NCBI GenBank assembly: GCA_031285115.1
Contig: JAITWU010000251.1
Span: forward strand, 1-20,568
Length of the DNA: 20,568 nt
Source of the DNA: Azonexus sp.
Lineage (GTDB): Bacteria; Pseudomonadota; Gammaproteobacteria; Burkholderiales; Rhodocyclaceae
Direction: 5' to 3'
Numbering within the stretch: the first letter of the stretch is position 1; the number at the start of each line of letters is the position of its first letter. A program made the position numbers and the translations under genes. Under the pieces are notes generated by a model, which was given only the letters and a program-made list of their open reading frames with translations, had not been told where the DNA came from and did no database searches. This document shows, one piece after another, positions 2,305-11,966 of this stretch.

Positions 2305-3998
2305 AGGACGAATCCGCGGTCGATGCTGTCGAGGTAGGTTTTGAATTCGCTGCGCGCCTGGCGAATCAGGTGTTCGTCCTGGGCATCGAGCGCCATTTCA
2401 AAGCGGGTCAGTTCGTGGCCGATGTTGGCGCGCAGGTTGCCGAGGTGGTCTTCGTAGAGGCGCTTGGCGCGGGCGAGGAGATAAATGTTTTCCTGCTTGT
2501 CGCGCGGGTGAATCTTGAGGCTTTGCATTTTTTCCAGCGCCTGCGCTACGGCGGCTTCGTCCATCACCTGAGAATCGCGGCGAATCAGGCGCTGCACGGT
2601 TTTGCCGGTGAGCGGCACATGCGCTTCGACTTCAAGGAGGCCGTTGGCGTCATAGGTAAAGCGCACCTTGACCGGGACTTCGCCCTTTGGCCGGGGCGGG
2701 ACGGCGACATCGAGGGCGCCGAGCGGGAGATTTTCGCTGGCGGTGGGCGACTCGCCCTGGCGGATGTCAAGTTCGATCAGCGATTGATTGTCTTCAAGGG
2801 TGGAGAAACTCTGCACTTTGGAAACCGGCACCGGCGTATTGCGCTCGATGATCGGTGCGAAACGGTCGCCATGACGCTGGCCGCCGATTTCTTCGCTGAC
2901 GGCAAGGCCGAGCGAGTAGGGCATGACGTCGGTGAGCACCACTTCAGCGAGCGCCGCATCGCGCGCCTTGAGGGCGGCCTGAATCGCCGCGCCATGCGCT
3001 ACCGCTTCGTCGGGATTGATGGTGCGCAGCGGCAGACGCCCGAACAGGCGGGTGACCAACTGCCGCACCATCGGCAGGCGCGTGGCGCCGCCGATGAGCA
3101 CGACTTCGTCGAGTTCTTCCGGACGCAGCCGGGCATCCATGAGCGCCCGTTCGATGGGGCGGCGCAGACGCTGGAGCAGCGGGGCGGCGCACGCTTCGAA
3201 ATCGGCGCGGGAAATGTTGCCGCTGATGTCCTTGCCGTCCAGGCGCAGCGCGAGTTCGACGCTGTCTTTTTCGCTCAGGTCGCGTTTGGCTTGTTCGGCG
3301 CTGCGCCACAACAGTTTGTTGGTCAGCGCCGCCTGCCGCTCGGCTTCGCCGACGCCGGTCTGGCGCAGAAACTGGTCGAGCAGCGCGACCACGAAATCTT
3401 CGCCGCCGAGCCGCGTGTCGCCCGCGCTGGCGCGAACTTCGACCACGCCCTCGAAATATTCGAGAACCGAGACATCAAAGGTGCCGCCGCCGAGGTCGAA
3501 AATGAGAAAAGTCGCGTGATCGCGGCGCTCCTGCAAACCGTAGGCCAGACCCGCCGCCGTCGGCTCGTTGAGGAGGCGCTCGACCTTCAGCCCGGCGAGA
3601 TGCCCCGCCGTTTGCGTCGCCTTGCGCTGAACGTCGTTGAAATAGGCCGGAACGGTAATGACCGCCTCGCTGACCGGCTCGCCCAGCCAGGCTTCGGCGT
3701 CGGCCTTGAGGGCGCCGAGGATGAGGGCGCTCAATTCCTCGGCGCGCAAACGCCGGTTGCCAAGCGTGACTTCGTGATCGCTGCCCATCCAGCGTTTGAA
3801 ATTGCTCGCCGTGCGCTGCGGATGCGTCGCCAGCCGCTCGCGCGCCGCCAGCCCGGTCAGCCAGGCGCCGTCATCGGCGAGACTGACGACCGAGGGCGTC
3901 AGAACATGGCCGAGGGCATTCGGGATGAGGCAAGGCCCGCCATCCCGAAAAACGCCGACGAGACTGTTGGTGGTGCCGAGGTCAATGCCGATGATCAT
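2301..3998 (-). CDS. hscC: Hsp70-family chaperone HscC
   Basis: 565 aa, shorter than DnaK (about 640) and close to E. coli HscC (about 556). Hsp70 signatures are intact: phosphate-1 loop GIDLGTTNS (4-12), VPAYFND (116-122), NEPTAAGLAYG (144-154), phosphate-2 IFDLGGGTFDVS (166-177) and adenosine loop IGGATRLP (302-309). The substrate-binding domain has NTPVPVSK, and the helical lid is short, without a C-terminal EEVD. HscC is a specialised Hsp70 that uses dedicated J-proteins rather than DnaJ; here a J-domain gene overlaps its stop codon. It starts 16 bp after metY, so the three genes may share a transcript. No strong ribosome site is visible before ATG 3998; the start is chosen because MIIGIDLGTT matches the family N-terminus. 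Confidence 0.93.
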   Translation of the reverse strand: MIIGIDLGTTNSLVGVFRDGGPCLIPNALGHVLTPSVVSLADDGAWLTGLAARERLATHPQRTASNFKRWMGSDHEVTLGNRRLRAEELSALILGALKADAEAWLGEPVSEAVITVPAYFNDVQRKATQTAGHLAGLKVERLLNEPTAAGLAYGLQERRDHATFLIFDLGGGTFDVSVLEYFEGVVEVRASAGDTRLGGEDFVVALLDQFLRQTGVGEAERQAALTNKLLWRSAEQAKRDLSEKDSVELALRLDGKDISGNISRADFEACAAPLLQRLRRPIERALMDARLRPEELDEVVLIGGATRLPMVRQLVTRLFGRLPLRTINPDEAVAHGAAIQAALKARDAALAEVVLTDVMPYSLGLAVSEEIGGQRHGDRFAPIIERNTPVPVSKVQSFSTLEDNQSLIELDIRQGESPTASENLPLGALDVAVPPRPKGEVPVKVRFTYDANGLLEVEAHVPLTGKTVQRLIRRDSQVMDEAAVAQALEKMQSLKIHPRDKQENIYLLARAKRLYEDHLGNLRANIGHELTRFEMALDAQDEHLIRQARSEFKTYLDSIDRGFVL

Positions 3999-4014
3999 CG
4001 CGGCATGGCTGCTT

Positions 4015-5286
4015 TCAGACCGCCTTGAGCGCCTGATCGAGGTCGGCGATCAGATCGTCGATATGCTCGATGCCGACCGAGAGGCGGATCATGTCTTCGG
4101 AAACGCCGGCGCGGGCGAGTTCTTCCGGCGCCAGTTGGCGGTGGGTGGTGGACGCCGGGTGGCAGGCGAGCGTCTTGCAGTCGCCGATATTGACCAAGCG
4201 GGTGACCAGCTTGAGCGCATCCTGGAAGCGGCCACCGCCTTCGCGTCCGCCTTTGACGCCGAAGTTGAGGATGCCGGAAGCGCGCCCGCCCATGTATTTT
4301 TGCACCAGCGCGTGATCCTTGTGTTCGGGCAGCCCGGCGTAATTGACCCAGCCGACGTTGGCGTGATCGCGCAGGAAGCGGGCGATTTTGAGCGCGTTGT
4401 CGCAGATGCGATCCATGCGCAGCGCCAGCGTTTCGACGCCTTGCAGAATCAAAAAGGCGTTGAAGGGGCTGATCGCCGCGCCCATATTGCGCAGCGGCAC
4501 GACGCGGGCGCGGGCGATGTAGGCGGCGGGGCCGAGGGCTTCAGTGTAGATGACGCCGTGGTAGGAAACATCCGGCTCGTTCAAACGCTTGAATCTGGCC
4601 CTGTGCTCGGCCCACGGGAATTTGCCGCTATCGACGATGATGCCGCCGAGCGAGTTGCCGTGACCGCCGAGATATTTGGTCAGGGCATGGACGACGATGT
4701 CAGCCCCATGCTCGAAGGGGCGGCACAGGTAGGGGGAGGGCACGGTGTTGTCGACGATCACCGGCACGCCGTGTTTGTGGGCGATGGCGGCGAGTTGCTC
4801 GAAATCGGTGATATTGCCGAGCGGGTTGCCGACCGATTCGCAAAAGACGGCTTTGGTTTTGCCGTCGATCAGTTTTTCAAAAGTTTGCGGATCGCGGTAA
4901 TCGGCAAAGCGCACGTCGATACCGTACTGCGGCAGGGTGTGGGCAAAGAGATTGTAGGTGCCGCCGTAGAGGGTACTCGACGTGACGATGTTGTCGCCCG
5001 CCTCGGCAATGGTCTGAATCGCGGCGGTAATGGCGGCCATGCCGGAAGCCATCGCCAGCCCGGCAATGCCGCCTTCGAGCGCGGCGATGCGCTTTTCCAG
5101 CACATCCTGGGTCGGAGTCATGATCCGCGTGTAGATGTTGCCGGGCACTTTGAGGTCGAACAGGTCGGCCCCGTGCTGGGTGCTGTCGAAAGCGTAGGAG
5201 GTGGTCTGGTAGATCGGCACAGCGACCGCGCGGGTGGTCGGGTCGGGGCTGTAGCCGCCGTGTACGGCAAGGGTTTCGAGTTTCAT
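4015..5286 (-). CDS. metY: O-acetylhomoserine sulfhydrylase (MetY-type)
   Basis: 423 aa, the usual length of O-acetylhomoserine (thiol)-lyases of the Cys/Met metabolism PLP-dependent (fold type I) family. It has the N-terminus ETLAVHGGYSPDPTTRAVAV, YTRIMTPTQDVLE, the glycine loop ASGMAAI (80-86), PLP-contacting D179 in VIVDNT, and the Schiff-base lysine K204 in ALTKYLGGHG. The C-terminus RLSVGIEHIDDLIADLDQAL is typical. The enzyme makes homocysteine (or methionine from methanethiol) from O-acetylhomoserine in the cytosol. ATG 5286 follows a GGGAG ribosome site by 7 nt. It is upstream of hscC by 16 bp. Cystathionine gamma-synthase is a less likely alternative because of length and the long insert around 230-270. 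Confidence 0.92.
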   Translation of the reverse strand: MKLETLAVHGGYSPDPTTRAVAVPIYQTTSYAFDSTQHGADLFDLKVPGNIYTRIMTPTQDVLEKRIAALEGGIAGLAMASGMAAITAAIQTIAEAGDNIVTSSTLYGGTYNLFAHTLPQYGIDVRFADYRDPQTFEKLIDGKTKAVFCESVGNPLGNITDFEQLAAIAHKHGVPVIVDNTVPSPYLCRPFEHGADIVVHALTKYLGGHGNSLGGIIVDSGKFPWAEHRARFKRLNEPDVSYHGVIYTEALGPAAYIARARVVPLRNMGAAISPFNAFLILQGVETLALRMDRICDNALKIARFLRDHANVGWVNYAGLPEHKDHALVQKYMGGRASGILNFGVKGGREGGGRFQDALKLVTRLVNIGDCKTLACHPASTTHRQLAPEELARAGVSEDMIRLSVGIEHIDDLIADLDQALKAV

Positions 5287-5315
5287 GCAGGTCTCCCGGT
5301 CGGAATAAAAGCGAG

Positions 5316-5321
5316 AGTGTA
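5316..5321 (-). promoter_or_regulatory. Candidate extended -10 for metY
   Basis: On the minus strand TGC-TACACT forms an extended -10 element about 30 bp before the metY ATG. No good -35 is seen at the expected distance. This is pattern matching only. Confidence 0.3.
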
Positions 5322-5339
5322 GCAGGGCGCGAGCGGCTG

Positions 5340-5360
5340 CCAGCAGCCATTTTCTGCTGG
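5340..5360 (-). terminator. Hairpin after the unknown 266-aa gene
   Basis: CCAGCAG and CTGCTGG form a perfect 7-bp stem with a 7-nt loop, 24 bp downstream of the stop of the minus-strand gene at 5384 and upstream of the metY start. There is no T-run after it, so termination would be weak; it could also be chance. Confidence 0.3.
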
Positions 5361-5383
5361 TCGCGCAAGGCAGAAACCGCGCC

Positions 5384-6184
5384 TCAGATCAGGATGTAGC
5401 GGTGATTGTGCTTTTCGTTTCGTAACGCGGCGGCGGCTTCAGCGGCCGGAAAGCTGACCAGACAAGTCAACCATTGCCGCCGGTCGCTGCAATGCAGGAG
5501 CGGCAAGGCCGAGGCGTCGTCAGCCGTCGCGGCTGGCGGGTCGATGCGCAAATAGCTTTCCGGCGCGGCGAGCCAGCTTTGCAAGCCCTTGACGATATTC
5601 TCCGGCATCAACTCGCGCCCCGTTTCCGTCGCTTCTGCGGGCGGCTCGCTGACGCCAACGCCTTGATCTTGTTCCGAGGCCATGCGCTGCATACGGTCAT
5701 GGCGGCGCAGCTTGTGGAGATGTTCGGCAAAATTGCCGAGCAGGCGGTCGAGCGCCGCCAGACAGATTTGCTCACGACAGGCTTCGATGCTGGTGGTCAG
5801 GCTGTGCAGGGTATGGTCGGTGAGGCTGGATGCGCCGTTGGCCGTCGTTTTCCGGCGCATCCCGAGGAGGGCGTGAATTTCGCCATCGGCGGGCAATTGG
5901 GGCATGTGTTTCTTGGCCGCCAGACTGCATCCGAGGGCCTGGCTGATTTCTTCGGCATTGGCGAACAGCGGGCCGGGCGTCACCGCCAGCGGCCCGGGCA
6001 GGGCGGCGACCTGACGCTCGAAATAAGCCAGCGTCGTCCTGGCTGCGGGCAGCAGACTCCCGAAAAAAGCCGGGGTCGTATGGATCTGGTTGCCGACGGT
6101 GACTTCGATGCGCGTCAGCAGCGAATCCTGTTTGACGGGCATTGTCGGGGAAGAACGGATGAGGCGAGCCAGTTTGCCAAGCAT
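5384..6184 (-). CDS. Hypothetical protein, 266 aa
   Basis: I do not recognise this protein. ATG 6184 is preceded by an AGGAG ribosome site, which supports the start. The protein is soluble, without signal peptide or membrane helices. Residues about 20-160 look mostly helical, with a conserved-looking block KKHMPQLPADGEIHALLGMR; a helix with Cys/His residues (CREQICLAALDRLLGNFAEH) follows, then a low-complexity acidic linker (about 175-195) and a C-terminal segment around WLTCLVSFPAAEAAAALRNE. It stands alone between mnmC and metY behind a long 5' leader, so context gives no function. It could be a lineage-restricted betaproteobacterial family. Confidence 0.65.
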   Translation of the reverse strand: MLGKLARLIRSSPTMPVKQDSLLTRIEVTVGNQIHTTPAFFGSLLPAARTTLAYFERQVAALPGPLAVTPGPLFANAEEISQALGCSLAAKKHMPQLPADGEIHALLGMRRKTTANGASSLTDHTLHSLTTSIEACREQICLAALDRLLGNFAEHLHKLRRHDRMQRMASEQDQGVGVSEPPAEATETGRELMPENIVKGLQSWLAAPESYLRIDPPAATADDASALPLLHCSDRRQWLTCLVSFPAAEAAAALRNEKHNHRYILI

Positions 6185-6260
6185 GGTGTCGGTCTCCTGA
6201 AGAAAGGGATGATGTCCGGGTTGTACCGCTATCTTGTGCCGTTAATCTTGCGCTGCTGTC

Positions 6261-6356
6261 TCTTGTTACCTCAAAAACCCCCGGTGTGCAAATGGAAATG
6301 GCCGGTTTCCGGGCTGCGGCTCAGGTTTAAGGCAGGGGTTTTTTATTGTAACAAGA
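6261..6356. repeat. Imperfect inverted repeat, 21-22 bp arms
   Basis: The left arm (6261-6281) reads TCTTGTTAC-CTC-AAAAACCCC and the right arm (6335-6356) GGGGTTTTT-TATT-GTAACAAGA. Two perfect 9-bp blocks are separated by a 3-4 nt mismatch, and weaker similarity continues outward to about 6254 and 6363. The 53-nt interior is G/C-rich. Together with 6185-6514 this is the only non-coding stretch above 300 bp. It could be a small palindromic element, a structured 5' leader, or a terminator acting on the plus strand (stem followed by T6). A TACAAT box on the minus strand (6350-6345) lies inside the right arm and might be the -10 of the 266-aa gene. Confidence 0.5.
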
Positions 6357-6423
6357 TACTGCAATCGCCAATCATCGTTTTGTGATATGCCATTCCACTA
6401 TTCCGGCCCTTGAGTATGTTTAG

Positions 6424-6454
6424 AAAAGCCCCTCGCCCCCTTGGGGGAGAGGGG
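6424..6454 (-). terminator. G/C-rich terminator-like hairpin after mnmC
   Basis: CCCCTCGCCCCC (6429-6440) faces GGGGGAGAGGGG (6443-6454): 11 of 12 positions pair. Read on the minus strand, the stem is followed by CTTTTCT, as in an intrinsic terminator, about 60 bp after the mnmC stop. Similar C-rich/G-rich strings recur at 6456-6467 and 6488-6500. This class of sequence is a common dispersed intergenic repeat in proteobacteria. Confidence 0.6.
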
Positions 6455-6514
6455 TTGGGGAGAGGGGGTTGCAACCGGAAAAACGCTCGCCCCCTCGCCC
6501 TTTTCCAATACCCG

Positions 6515-8401
6515 CTACCCCCCGCCATGCAGCAAAAAGCGTCCCGGATGCACGGCATCGGCCAAGTCGCGTTCGAGCGGCAGCGGCTCGCCTTCGAGAT
6601 AACTCAAGAGCAGATCGGCCATCAGCGCCGACCAGACAATGCCGCGTGTGCCAAAGCCCTGGACGCACCACAGGCCGGGCGTCGCTGGCAAGTTGCGCAA
6701 ACGGCGGTTGGTGGCGGTGTCCGGCGGCACGAGCGGGCCGACGATGGGCAGGCGATCCGGCGACATCGGGCGAAAACCGACGCGGCCAGGCAGGTCTTCC
6801 GGGGTGACGCCAGCGGCGAAATCAGGCAGGGTCAAGCGCAGGGCGGCGAGGTTTTCGGCGTGGTCTTTGGCGCGCAGGCCGGGTTCATCATCATCGTAAC
6901 TGCTCGTTGCGCCAATCAGGCGGACGCCATCGACTACCGGCAGGGCGTAGCCAAACTGAAACAGCGCCACCTCAAGAGCGGGCGCGGCGCTGGATGGCAG
7001 ATGGCTGACCTGGCCGCGAGCGGCGCGTTGCGGCAGGTGGGCGAACTGGGCAAAACGCGGCGCAGCGACGCCGCTCGCCATGACCAGCACCGGCGCGGCG
7101 GCAAGGAGACGGCCATCGGCAGCCAGCGCCTGCCACTCTCCGTTATCCGCGTTGCGTTCGAGGGCTGCGACGGCGCTGGAAAAACGGCAGTCGATGCGCT
7201 CAGGAAAAGCCGCCAGCGCCGCCCGGCAAAGCGACGGCGGCTGCGCCCAACCGGCAGTCGGGAACCACCAGCCGCCGCGCCGCAGCGGCTGTTTGAGGCG
7301 CGCCGAGGCGGCTTCCCGGTCGGCAAATTGGAAAAATTCAGGCGGCAGGCCAAGTTGCTCGACGGTTCGCCGCTGCTGCGCCTCGTGCTCGGCTTCCCGC
7401 GCCAGATGCAAAATGCCGCAGGCCGACCAGCGGGCCGTCGGCAGGGTTTCGAGTAAAGCGCGGGTGGCGAAAAAACCGGCGCGGGTAAGGCGGGCGAGGC
7501 GGTTGTCGTCGGCGCTCGGCAGTGGCCGCAACATCCCGGCGAGATTGCCGGAAGCGCCGTCGCCCGCCGCTGCTTTTTCTTCCAGCACGGTAACTTGCCA
7601 GCCCGCCGCCGCCAGCCGGTGGGCGGCGGTGCTGCCAGCAACACCCGCGCCAATCACCATCGCCCGCCGTTCAGCGGGCAGGGGGCGGCGATCAGGCCGC
7701 TGCGAGCGGAAACGGCCTGTCAACATCTGGCGCTTGCCAGCGAAACCGGGGCGTTTTTCCAGATCGAACTCAGCGGCCGCCAGCGCCGCGCGCACCTCGC
7801 CCGCCACCGACCAGGTCGAGAGCGTCGCCCCCGGCGCGGCCATGCGGGCCAGCCCCCGGCACAGGCGCGGCGTCCACAGTTCCGGGTTTTGGGCGGGCGA
7901 AAAACCGTCGAGGTAATAAGCGTCGACCGAGGCGTCGATGCTGCCGAGTTCCGTGGCCGCATCGCCAAACAACAGGGTCAGAACGACCTGGCCGTCGGCA
8001 AAATAAAGCCGGTGCATCCCCGGCGTCAGCGGCGGCCAGCGGCGCTGCAACTCGCCCGCCAGCGCCGCCAGCTCCGGCCAGGCGCGATGGGCGCGGGCAA
8101 GGTCGGCGGCGGTCAACGGATGTTTTTCGACAGAAACGAAATGCAGCCGCCGACAACGCCGGGGATCATCACGCCAGGCTTGCCAGGTGGCGAGAAAATT
8201 AAGCCCCAGCCCAAAGCCGGTTTCGAGAATGACGAAACGCTGCCGACCCTGCCAGCGCGTTGGTAAATCGTTGCCGCCAAGAAAAACATGCCGCGCCTGC
8301 GCCGGGCCGCCGTGGGCCGAGTGGTAAACATCGCCAAAGACGACAGAGCAGGGCGTGCCGTCAGCGGTGAAATCGAGTTGGCCGGGATGGAGTTTGGGCA
8401 C
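6515..8401 (-). CDS. mnmC: Bifunctional tRNA mnm5s2U34 methyltransferase/oxidoreductase MnmC
   Basis: 628 aa fused enzyme (E. coli 668). The N-terminal MnmD-like methyltransferase has FGDVYHS (22-28), the SAM loop [13 protein letters not shown] (58-70) and [15 protein letters not shown] (163-177). The C-terminal FAD-dependent oxidoreductase has its Rossmann motif [13 protein letters not shown] at about 248-260 and the late [15 protein letters not shown] and [17 protein letters not shown] motifs. It performs the last two steps (cmnm5 to nm5 to mnm5) at the wobble uridine of certain tRNAs in the cytosol. Translation most likely begins at GTG 8401; no clear ribosome site is visible, but the next residues KLHPGQLDF align with the family N-terminus. 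A degenerate copy of this start region lies at 9131-9172. Confidence 0.95.
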
Positions 8402-8423
8402 GGGGGAATCAGTTGGCGCTGTT

Positions 8424-8526
8424 ATTCCATTTCCAGATCAAACGATTACTTTGTCGACTTCGCTTGCCGTGCGACAGCACTGCCTGCGCTTCGTCTTCGC
8501 GTACTCGCTTGATCTGAAAATGGAAT
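8424..8526. repeat. 103-bp element with 22-bp terminal inverted repeats
   Basis: The left arm (8424-8445) begins ATTCCATTTCCAGATCAA and the right arm (8505-8526) is its reverse complement except for two transitions, both of which could pair as G-U in RNA of one orientation. The 59-bp interior is G/C-rich, with repeated GCGAAG motifs on the minus strand. It fills the gap between mnmC and the membrane gene at 8530. No clear target-site duplication is seen. It resembles a small non-autonomous (MITE/REP-like) element or a strong bidirectional hairpin. Confidence 0.65.
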
Positions 8527-8529
8527 TAG

Positions 8530-8997
8530 CTATAGGGATAACAAACTCAGCGCATAGATGCCGCCAAGTCCTGACAAAAGCGAAAAACCGGCGAAAACGA
8601 GATGGCCGATGAGTCCGTGCTGCTTGCTTATAACGGTCAGCCAGGCGCCAAGCAGACAGGTGGCAGCAGCAAGTATGGCGGCTCCGGCAAGCGCCGAGCC
8701 GAGCAGTTCGCCAGCGAAGCCACCCCAAACCGCCCCGATTAAGGCTAATCCAAGGAAAGCGACGGGTTTCGATAGCGGCGGCGAAGGAACAGAGGCAAAG
8801 AGAGGAATGCCAGTCATCGTGCGTCCCTGCCAGATCAAGCCGAAGCCAACACCGAAAAAGAGAATTGAAAATCCGACGACCGGCCCAAGCAGATTGCCAA
8901 CCAGAAATCCAAAGATAGACGCCAGCGCGAGACATAGCAGAAAACGCCATGCAAAAAGAACAGCCATGATTGAGGGAGCGATGTCGGGTGTATCCAT
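8530..8997 (-). CDS. Multi-pass membrane protein, hypothetical, 155 aa
   Basis: I do not recognise the family. The frame stays open upstream to a TTG at 9033, but the extra 12 residues (MYIQNHNIISPL) come from A/T-rich, promoter-like sequence, so ATG 8997 (MDTPDIAPS) is preferred; neither start has a strong ribosome site. The protein has about five hydrophobic segments: roughly residues 10-30 and 31-52 at the N-terminus, then glycine/alanine-rich helices around 75-95, 97-118 and 128-152, and a short polar loop (QGRTMTGIPLFASVPSPPLS) after the second. It sits in the accessory block between lysS and mnmC, and its base composition is less G/C-rich than the housekeeping genes. Confidence 0.6.
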   Translation of the reverse strand: MDTPDIAPSIMAVLFAWRFLLCLALASIFGFLVGNLLGPVVGFSILFFGVGFGLIWQGRTMTGIPLFASVPSPPLSKPVAFLGLALIGAVWGGFAGELLGSALAGAAILAAATCLLGAWLTVISKQHGLIGHLVFAGFSLLSGLGGIYALSLLSL

Positions 8998-9021
8998 AAG
9001 TGGACTTATTATATTATGATT

Positions 9022-9033
9022 TTGTATATACAA
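9022..9033. promoter_or_regulatory. 12-bp palindrome in A/T-rich upstream region
   Basis: TTGTATATACAA is a perfect palindrome about 25 bp before the preferred ATG (8997) of the membrane gene, within an A/T-rich stretch (9003-9037) that could hold its promoter. It could be an operator; its spacing differs from the longer E. coli LexA consensus. Function is unknown. Confidence 0.3.
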
Positions 9034-9130
9034 TAAAGGCCGCAGGTTGTATCAAATAATCGTTGGTAATAGTTTATTGCGTTGCAGTTTATCCAGCCTG
9101 CCAGTCAATCTGGGCTACGCCTGTGGAAGG

Positions 9131-9172
9131 CGAGGTCGCCGGGGTGGAATTTGGACAAGGAGTGGAATCAGT
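9131..9172 (-). pseudogene. Degenerate copy of the mnmC start region
   Basis: Bases 9131-9172 align with 8374-8413 (mnmC codons 1 to about 9 and the preceding leader) with about 80% identity and one 2-nt gap. On the minus strand it reads TTG TCC AAA TTC CAC CCC GGC GAC CTC, i.e. a start-like codon then SKFHPGDL against PKLHPGQL of MnmC. It soon loses the MnmC frame and stops. It begins right at the stop of the gene at 9174. I read it as a remnant left when the block 8414-9130 was inserted or duplicated. The rest of 9034-9130 shows nothing recognisable. Confidence 0.6.
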
Positions 9173-9173
9173 A

Positions 9174-9848
9174 TCAGACAACACGACTGAGGTTAAATAT
9201 CGGCAGATACATTGCCCCCACGACAATGACAGCCGAGCAGCAGAGTATGAGTAGCAATAGCCAGAAGCCGATGATGTGGTTTGTGCGGATGCGCGGCGTA
9301 TAGGCGCTTTCCAATGAAATGAGGACAGCAGGCACGAATGCGATCAACGGCCAGACAAACAGCGCGAACCGGTAGTTGATGACGGCTGCGGTAGGGTTTG
9401 GAAGATCAACGCCAAAATTCTGAAAAACCTCCTCGAACGCCGGTATGGCGAAGACTACGAATGCAGGAAAGGCAAATGATGTGAGGAAGATGAGCCAGTA
9501 GGCGATGAGCAGAACTTTGCTGCGCGGAGCAACGTGGGCCTTGGGATCAGGCGGTGGAGGCAGGGCTGGTGACTCGGCCAACTTCGCGCCAGCAGGTTTG
9601 CCGGGATTGGGTGTATTTAGACTTTTTTCTGCCGAGACAATCTTGTTATAAACGAGCACTCCTGCGGTGGCAGGAAACAACGCAATGAATCCGTAGCTCA
9701 ACGCTGCTACGGAATCATATTGGAAGGCATAGATGGCGGCGATAAAGCTGCAAATGACTGCCAGAAGAGATGTTAGCGCGCAGATCAGTCGAAGTTTTTG
9801 TAATTTTGATTCTGGCTCAGCAATATTGTTTAGGCTCAATTTATTCAA
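9174..9848 (-). CDS. Membrane protein with GspF/PilC-like helices, 224 aa
   Basis: The start is probably TTG 9848, preceded by AAAGGA at a good distance. Five predicted helices lie at about 19-42, 47-67, 111-134, 156-178 and 191-214, with a proline-rich cytosolic loop (about 75-108) after the second. Two stretches recall the type II secretion/type IV pilus inner-membrane proteins GspF/PilC: IPAFEEVFQNFGVDLPNPT (135-153) after helix 3, and AMYLPIFNLSRVV (212-224) at the very C-terminus. The large cytoplasmic helical domains of GspF are absent, so this is at most a reduced relative and may be a resemblance only. It begins 20 bp after an attC-like site, a typical position for an integron cassette gene. 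Confidence 0.65.
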   Translation of the reverse strand: MNKLSLNNIAEPESKLQKLRLICALTSLLAVICSFIAAIYAFQYDSVAALSYGFIALFPATAGVLVYNKIVSAEKSLNTPNPGKPAGAKLAESPALPPPPDPKAHVAPRSKVLLIAYWLIFLTSFAFPAFVVFAIPAFEEVFQNFGVDLPNPTAAVINYRFALFVWPLIAFVPAVLISLESAYTPRIRTNHIIGFWLLLLILCCSAVIVVGAMYLPIFNLSRVV

Positions 9849-9866: not shown

Positions 9867-9916
9867 GATCTAACGCCTGAACCAAGGCGCGCCGCAAAGC
9901 GACATCTGCTTCAGGC
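9867..9916 (-). mobile_element. Integron attC-like recombination site
   Basis: On the minus strand the site ends in GCGTTAGAT-C-C with the R' box GTTAGAT (9874-9868), which fits the GTTRRRY consensus. The 35 nt up to and including it match the 3' half of the aadA-type attC as I remember it at about 29 positions, including CGCTT-x-GCGGCGCG and TTCA-x-GCGTTAGAT. The outer stem GCCTGAA/TTCAGGC (9916-9910 with 9881-9875) and an inner CGC-TTT-GCG hairpin give the expected imperfect palindrome. The left R'' box is degenerate (GCCTGAA instead of RYYYAAC), so activity is doubtful. It overlaps the stop codon of the PNPOx-like gene and precedes the next gene by 20 bp. No integrase is in the window. Confidence 0.65.
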
Positions 9917-10393: not shown

Positions 10394-10415
10394 GTGACCG
10401 GATTATTCCGGTCGC
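10394..10415 (-). other. Hairpin with the lysS stop codon in its loop
   Basis: GACCGG (10396-10401) and CCGGTC (10408-10413) are perfectly complementary, extended by a wobble and a G-C pair. The 6-nt loop holds the lysS TAA (10405-10403). There is no T-tract, so it looks less like a terminator than an mRNA processing or stabilising structure between lysS and the following gene. Confidence 0.35.
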
Positions 10416-11902
10416 ATCGACGGAAACAAAATCACATCGCGGATCGCTGGAGAGTCGGTCAGCAGCATGATCAGCCGGTCGATGCCGATGCCGCAGCCGC
10501 CGGTGGGCGGCAGGCCGTATTCGAGGGCGCGGATGAAATCGGCGTCGTAATACATCGCTTCCTCGTCGCCCGCTTCCTTGGCTTTGGCCTGTTCGAGAAA
10601 ACGCGCGGCCTGGTCTTCGGCGTCGTTGAGTTCGGAAAAACCGTTGGCGATTTCGCGGCCAACGATGAACAGCTCGAAGCGTTCGGTGATTTCCGGATTG
10701 CTGTCGGAAGCGCGGGCGAGCGGCGAGACTTCGACCGGATAGTCGATGATGAAAGTCGGTTCCCAGCACTGCGCTTCGGCGCAGGCTTCAAACAACTGCA
10801 ATTGCAGGCTGCCGAGGCCGCCCGGCTTTATTTTCTCGCCGCAGGCGCGGATTTGGGCTTTGAGCCAGTCAGCGTCGGCCAGTTGGGCGTCGGTGAATTC
10901 CGGGCGCTCGCTCTGGATGGCCTGGTTGATGGTCAGCCGCCGGAAAGGCTTGGAGAGATCGAGTTCGCGGCCCTGATAGATAAACACTTCTTGGCCCAGC
11001 GCCTCGCGGGCGGCGTGGCGCAGCAAGCCCTCGGTGAAATCCATGAGCGTGCCGTAATTGGCATACGCCTCGTAGAACTCCATCATCGTAAATTCCGGGT
11101 TGTGGCGCGGACTCAAGCCCTCGTTACGAAAATTGCGGTTGATCTCGAACACCTTTTCAAAGCCGCCGACGACCAGCCGCTTCAAATACAACTCCGGCGC
11201 AATGCGCAGAAACTGCTGCATGTCGAGCGCGTTGTGGTGCGTCACGAACGGCTTGGCCGCAGCGCCGCCGGGAATCGGGTGCATCATCGGCGTTTCGACC
11301 TCCATGAAGCCGTGGCCGGTCATGTAATTGCGGATCGAGGCGACGATGGCCGAGCGGGCGCGGAAGACGAAGCGCGTCTCCTCGTTCATGATGAGATCAA
11401 CGTAACGCTGGCGGTATTTCAGTTCCTGATCGGCGAGGCCGTGGAATTTATCCGGCAGCGGGCGTAGCGATTTGGTGAGCAGCCGGATTTCCGTGGCTTG
11501 AATCGACAGTTCGCCGGTTTTGGTTTTCATCAATGTGCCGACGACGCCGAGAATATCGCCCAGATCCCAGGTCTTGAAGGCGGCGTAAGCGTCTTCGCCG
11601 ATTTTGTCGCGGGCGACGTAAATCTGGATGCGGCCCGAGAGATCCTGCACCGTGGCAAAAGACGCCTTGCCCATGACCCGCTTCAACATCATGCGACCGG
11701 CCACCTTGACCTCAACCGGCAGCGCCGCCAGTTCTTCGGCGCTTTTTTCGCCATAGCCCTGATGCAGAATGGCCGCCGTGTTTTCGCGCTGAAAGTCGTT
11801 GGGAAAGGCTTTGCCGGTCTTGCGCCACTCCGAGAGCTTGGCGCGGCGCTCGGCGATGATGTGGTTTTCGTCTGGCGGGGTGGGGGTTTCATGGGTAGAC
11901 AT
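10403..11902 (-). CDS. lysS: Lysyl-tRNA synthetase, class II
   Basis: 499 aa from ATG 11902, which is preceded by AAGGA at 6 nt; the frame is open further upstream to about 11944 but that start has no ribosome site. The N-terminal OB-fold anticodon-binding domain is seen around [19 protein letters not shown]. Class II catalytic motifs follow: motif 1 [19 protein letters not shown], motif 2 [20 protein letters not shown], and motif 3 [20 protein letters not shown] near the C-terminus. The enzyme charges tRNA-Lys in the cytosol. It lies 64 bp downstream of tex on the same strand; a palindromic TGTAAATTACA at 11928-11938 lies in the gap. The downstream neighbour is the PNPOx-like gene. Confidence 0.97.
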
Positions 11903-11966
11903 CGGGAATCCTTGGTTTCTAGGCAACTGTAAATTACAACACAACTGATCTTCTTATTCTTCTTGT

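Follow-up and report, generated by a model that had tools for sequence, protein, structure and literature searches.

Integration of integron cassettes outside integrons, at attG-type sites, was reportedly described by Loot et al. 2024. The attG integration is treated in the available part of PMC12901181, and Loot et al. 2024 is also cited in the available parts of PMC12444791 and PMC12690207. Single attC sites and attC clusters without an integron integrase are termed SALIN and CALIN, respectively, in excerpts of PMC12690207 and PMC9024848, and an excerpt of PMC12444791 deals with CALINs at other loci in Xanthomonas. The fusion of gene cassettes through partial attC loss is documented in a portion of PMC4670013. 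According to a portion of PMC2426708, which also treats the cassettes of Dechloromonas aromatica, about one third of the IntI are pseudogenes. Among the papers listed, judged by their titles and abstract beginnings, none dealt with cassettes dispersed in this genus.

The DNA analysed here (the window) is a whole contig of 20.6 kb (C168; 20,568 nucleotides) from a draft genome, G000 (Dechloromonas/Azonexus; 2.64 Mb, 83% complete); other G numbers denote genus or order mates. Its minus strand carries, in this order, lysS, a PNPOx-like gene starting 18 nt past the lysS stop, an attC-like site, memA, a 47-bp copy of the mnmC start, memB, a dispersed inverted repeat and mnmC (Table 1). The best match of lysS, 90% identical, is in a Dechloromonas MAG. 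In our reading, which we regard as probable, a truncated attC joins a fused cassette pair, PNPOx and memA, behind lysS. As in SALIN and CALIN, to the extent that the excerpts of PMC12690207 and PMC9024848 define them, the site is attC-derived, has an accessory gene beside it and no adjacent integrase gene, but truncation sets it apart, and a covariance model of the whole attC does not pick it up. With the fused cassettes described in the portion of PMC4670013 it shares two co-directional accessory genes and a partial attC between them; here, however, the pair is chromosomal and no integron is visible around it, no further attC was seen behind the second gene, and what remains of the attC is its 3' part. 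The catB3/aadA-type attC (60-bp class) has 38 of 44 bases, the inner hairpin and the R' box in common with the window site, whereas R'', the spacer and the start of L'' are missing from the latter. The attG-type integration could account for single cassettes at housekeeping loci, as at contig C184 of the same genome, but at the lysS site no recombination junction is readable. The site is of a known kind (SALIN, fused cassette), and the dispersal described below is the more interesting part.

Table 1. Positions of the features in and around the lysS-mnmC interval of the window
Feature	Position	Strand	Remarks
lysS (lysyl-tRNA synthetase)	10403..11944	-	host gene, left of the insert; start codon uncertain
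PNPOx-like flavoprotein gene, 157 aa	9911..10384	-	PF01243, E 6.4e-15; probable cassette gene
truncated attC	9868..9911	-	homologous to attC positions 17-60, 60-bp class
R' box GTTAGAT	9868..9874	-	fits GTTRRRY
L' box GCCTTGG	9882..9888	-	its L'' partner mostly missing
inner hairpin GTCGC-TTT-GCGGC	9891..9903	-	at the position of GCCGC-TTC-GCGGC in intact sites
memA, 224-aa probable membrane protein (by eye), orphan	9174..9848	-	possible second member of the fused pair
diverged copy of the first mnmC bases	9126..9172	-	directly 3' of memA; may be the insert's right-hand scar
memB, 155-167-aa probable membrane protein	8530..9033	-	small metagenomic family
inverted-repeat element	8421..8530	.	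between memB and mnmC; dispersed in genome and genus
mnmC	6515..8401	-	host gene, right of the insert; lysS-mnmC order in relatives

Likeness to attC and the missing left part

The initial annotation had recognised a 35-nt 3' half similar to the aadA-type attC. The likeness was found to cover a 44-nt 3' part, which aligns without gaps to its attC counterpart and is identical at 38 of 44 positions to the attC following catB3 on plasmid pKOX71 (L178), at 37 of 44 to two further sites (L179 and L180, the second of which also sits after catB3) and at 35 of 42 to an attC of the order mate G083 (L116); with eight sites compared in all, identity ranged from 22/26 to 38/44. A profile of four attC sites found independently of the window (L112, L116, L184, L186), run at full sensitivity, ranked this place first in the window with 23.7 bits (E 8.1e-7), while the next-best place scored 8.0 bits and the best of 100 dinucleotide-shuffled windows 12.1 bits. 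When four more sites, which had been found using the window as query, were added to the profile, the score was 29.4 bits (E 1.3e-8) and that of the shuffles 11.6; the first shuffles were run with default filters. In a blastn search with 86 bases 1231 plasmid records were matched, the best E value being 3e-5 among the 20 matches listed. All four plasmid records examined had integron or cassette-like contexts: two showed the catB3 end before qacEdelta1/sul1, the third a group II intron/qac region and the fourth, a Desulforapulum plasmid, a cassette-like gene row. The G083 attC used as query over 100 genomes gave a match in 16 of them, and in the window it matched 9870-9911 at E 3.2e-6. Judged by this homology, which goes beyond chance, 9868-9911 is attC-derived sequence.

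Further features of the initial annotation were recovered as well. The R' box on the minus strand and the inner hairpin are present, the last base of the PNPOx stop codon (9911) is the first of the attC likeness, the start of memA (9848) is 19 bases past the R' box, and neither the covariance model nor the profile found a second attC in the 20.6 kb. With regard to the SALIN definition, a partial attC stands on a 20.6-kb contig without a second attC, in an 83% complete genome where no IntI over the cut-off was found.

The left quarter of the site is missing. Positions 1-16 of attC (R'' RYYYAAC, the spacer and the first L'' bases) have no counterpart, and the DNA at that place is the PNPOx end. 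The R'' register, read by hand, is TATCAAA, which does not give the R''-R' pairing; nor is there an L''/L' stem with one extrahelical base, since L' is present but no likeness precedes AAGC on the L'' side. The outer stem GCCTGAA/TTCAGGC, earlier taken as part of the attC, had to be discarded, because this pairing joins the PNPOx end to the L'-R' spacer. A covariance model of the whole attC (R1), derived from 31 attC sites in genus and order mates, did not match the site even when filters were switched off and E values up to 10 were admitted, and its best score in the window, 10.8 bits, lies elsewhere; in G028, which had supplied none of the 31 sequences, R1 scored as high as 83.3 bits. Thus the covariance-model check proposed in the initial annotation speaks against a complete attC. 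The folded strand has z = -1.01 against shuffles, i.e. it folds no better than these. Two candidates were rejected: a complete attC, on account of the unremarkable fold, the lack of an R1 match and the missing left quarter, and an RNA family of Rfam, as the search found none at the site. The missing positions 1-16, the lack of an R1 match and the ordinary fold together show at the sequence level that the site is a truncated attC which has lost its R''-proximal part. R1 misses the site because the left part is absent, as the profile and BLAST tests show. An ordinary hairpin, for example a terminator, that resembles attC by chance would explain the blank R1 result and the unremarkable fold too; against the profile and BLAST statistics, and with an IntI relic and further attC matches present in G000, we hold this explanation to be very improbable.

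The loss itself may have been a deletion of about 11 nt that placed GCCT of the old R'' beside AAGC of L''; this route would rest on four bases, and it is proposed because the PNPOx relatives P0003 and P0004 end in NGA and SGA. As PNPOx ends like these relatives (..NGA/..SGA), its final codons appear to be its own, and it may be a gene with no cassette history to which the attC piece became attached. Such an event, in which the attC fragment and the memA side alone derive from an integron and became joined to a non-cassette PNPOx by illegitimate recombination, would fit both this C-terminus and the likeness beginning exactly at the PNPOx stop codon. Cassette ORFs, however, commonly end at R'' or L'', so that the coincidence with the stop codon is expected for a cassette too, and we rate the illegitimate joining as distinctly unlikely. 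Since a site without R'' and most of L'' is not expected to form the usual attC hairpin, and the only integron integrase seen in this incomplete genome is a relic, the truncated site is most likely inactive.

The insert between lysS and mnmC

A 3-kb query across the lysS-mnmC interval was compared with 59 genomes (the own genome, 35 genus mates and 23 order mates). The PNPOx-memA-memB stretch had no match in the 58 other genomes, save one 43-nt piece in G012, and the same holds for the whole lysS-mnmC stretch of the window when the dispersed repeat is set aside. A lysS-PNPOx-membrane gene order conserved without attC, the arrangement that would have told against the initial annotation, was not seen in these 58 genomes. 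In 30 of the 35 genus mates lysS and mnmC matched on one contig and strand; left out were G003, G004, G009 and G013, which had no such pair, and G023, where an 89-nt mnmC match lies 2.4 kb behind lysS and a longer one is on another contig. The gap between the two matches was 15-84 nt in 5 of the 30 (G019, G022, G026, G027, G028) and 515-2747 nt in the other 25. The short-gap, empty sites belong to other species and not to a sister strain. Among the relatives, no attC was found in the lysS-mnmC region of 17 loci (of 80 lysS loci). The 2 kb between lysS and mnmC is a foreign insert.

The genes of the insert are rare in the group. None of 59 genus mates gave a PNPOx match, and of 40 order mates one gave a weak match; across the phylum 14 of 398 genomes matched, the own genome and that order mate among them. 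PNPOx has 2874 protein relatives at E<=1e-3, itself included, the closest other one being 73% identical among the 120 listed. For memA a search of 5.8 billion proteins returned only itself among 927 candidates, and no family reached its cut-off; memB is matched by 28 proteins at E<=1e-3, itself included. The diverged mnmC-start copy that lies between memA and memB (79% over 42 nt at E 8e-7, equalled by 1 of 500 shuffles) is perhaps a scar of imported DNA. The inverted repeat beside mnmC has copies of 97-98% identity on contigs C344, C273, C94 and C92 of G000 and of 94-97% in G013.

In the reading that we prefer, PNPOx, the truncated attC and probably memA would have arrived as integron cassettes. 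PNPOx and memA flank the partial attC, both are candidate cassette genes, and they would now be a fixed co-directional pair, that is, a fused cassette. memA may represent the next cassette, whose own attC is gone, as suggested by the full R' box directly preceding its leader. The insert may have reached the interval because an integrase used a site other than attC, or because a piece of array recombined in the ordinary way. Both genes are probably read from the lysS operon, a prediction based on the 18-nt gap between lysS and PNPOx. We counted in favour of this origin the identity to the catB3 attC, the independent profile, the G083 hit, the distribution of PNPOx and memA, the short lysS-mnmC gaps in five relatives and the near-lack of matches to the insert, the IntI relic, the other attC, the empty C184 site and the documented fusion through partial attC loss; the blank R1 result, the ordinary fold, the lack of a 5' junction, the native-looking PNPOx end and the fact that the empty lysS-mnmC sites belong to other species were counted against it. 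The lysS site suggests how a cassette gets fixed: the attC is truncated, the genes are joined behind a housekeeping gene and the integrase decays.

Alternatively, a single cassette could have been put behind lysS by an integron integrase at a non-attC site (attG-type) and degraded later, in which case memA is no cassette. Solitary attC matches at many loci of the genus, and the cassette-like insertion at C184 of the own genome with empty sites elsewhere, are in line with it. Ectopic cassette integration, however, leaves host DNA behind the G of the R' box, and here the R' box is fully GTTRRRY, which host DNA would fit by chance only. Moreover, the 18 nt between lysS and PNPOx contain no G|TTRRRY core, and no 5' cassette junction is visible. 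We consider this alternative unlikely. The initial annotation had spoken of exactly the cassette layout, which stands at the 3' end only; the insertion at a secondary site beside lysS, which it also proposed, is possible, though the 18-nt gap lacks the core.

Integron remains in the genome and attC across the genus

The erosion of an integron, which the initial annotation had considered, agrees with the remains found elsewhere in G000. The search for intI gave none over the cut-off, but contig C263 carries a decayed relic, in which the N-terminal part survives as pieces in two frames (Phage_int_SAM_4) and the C-terminal part as one piece (Phage_integrase). The C-terminal piece is 71-72% identical to two IntI of relatives, and approximately residues 119-275 are absent. 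The other strand of C263 holds a gene row with two attC matches (29.2 and 25.6 bits). The decayed integron spans 3456-7758 (L017), and the genes opposite the IntI relic include two PAAR-motif proteins and a hemerythrin.

Five other attC matches were counted in G000, on three contigs: two on C67, two on C263 and a weak one on C184; R1 matches on C395 (18.0 bits) and C318 (15.7 bits) were not counted. Those of C67 (35.5 and 28.8 bits) lie beside a GH3 (nagZ-like) gene and near earP/efp. They are placed at both ends of the 8.8-kb contig (L181; 796-852 and 7825-7885), and between them are the GH3 gene, efp and earP, as well as corA- and argC-like genes (by eye). The C184 match (16.8 bits, E 3.27 in the genome search) is weak alone and was counted because its attC stretch matches a C67 site with 87% over 53 nt. 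At this locus (L182, 2810-3250) a metallo-hydrolase and an HDOD gene flank a 120-aa ORF and a degenerate attC. In G013, 19 nt replace 463 query bases (628-1090, most of the ORF cassette and the attC), and in G001, G012, G014, G018, G033 and G035 the flanks are no more than 30 nt apart. The empty site therefore indicates that cassette-like DNA was inserted at a housekeeping locus of G000; the C184 borders have decayed, and a clean G|TT junction is not readable in them. The paired-R-box pattern found one palindrome in the own genome.

Among 60 genomes searched with R1 under stricter filters, 51 had a match at E<=1; those without were 8 of the 24 order mates and one genus mate (G019). A pattern scan for attC worked when a bulge was allowed, and a stricter L-box rule gave nothing. 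In ten single-contig genomes of the genus R1 gave 105 matches at E<=0.01, of which 33 are solitary, 36 have an IntI over the cut-off no more than 5 kb away and 36 are clustered without such an IntI nearby. When the 33 solitary stretches were rechecked (about 3 kb on each side), a further match at E<=0.01 appeared in four (L242, L245, L259, L264) and an IntI relic beside another (L233), so 28 solitary sites remain. For the box counts one opposite-strand duplicate was removed from 166 matches. Among internal array sites GTTRRRY occurred at 70 of 141, among those ending a run at 11 of 24 and among solitary ones at 11 of 33; without the four that have a second match the solitary figure is 9 of 29 (Fisher p 0.10 against the internal sites). 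Of the sites that have GTT, 133 of 136 internal ones and 22 of 29 solitary ones continue with a purine. The AAC of R'' was present at 25 of 33 solitary and 135 of 141 internal sites, and since it is also lower in the solitary ones, decay accounts for their pattern equally well. The solitary sites may stem from ectopic integration or from array decay.

Four of the 33 solitary loci (L241, L242, L246, L247) share 126-196 bp directly upstream of the cassette. A 205-base query (L242:2136-2340) found 27 copies in 18 of 36 genus genomes, the own genome having none, and one weak match among 23 order mates (L304); these loci are L286-L313, i.e. 27 of the genus and L304 of another genus. The element, of about 190 bp, stands in front of cassettes in several loci and ends in ..GTGTAAACACTG|TTRGRY. 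The GTT is at the expected place in 15 of the 24 genus loci with a readable end (the end was not reached in L307 and L311, and L313 showed the copy of L306), and R1 matches at E<=0.1 in 12 of the 27. No IntI was found in the 28 element loci within at most 1.5 kb on either side. In our reading the end resembles an attI core and a promoter. Tentatively, and with the odds rather against it, cassettes in Dechloromonas/Azonexus may settle chromosome-wide and not at the integron alone, using ordinary intergenic sites and this putative attI-like element without an adjacent integrase, with an integrase located elsewhere acting in trans; the lysS site would be a fossil of this process after the integrase was lost. 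If this wider picture holds, the genus would offer a natural record of cassette integration outside integrons and possibly a set of attI-like docking sites without integrase, and the empty C184 sites in sister species would let the target rule be tested.

At five solitary attC (L240, L246, L247, L249 and L262, in G032, G038, G042 with two, and G047) similar sequence follows, GTTCCTGAACG..GCTTTCCAAA. The likeness was seen by eye and blastn linked some of these stretches to other loci; GTTCCTGAACG..GCTTTCCAAA is perhaps a repeat used as target.
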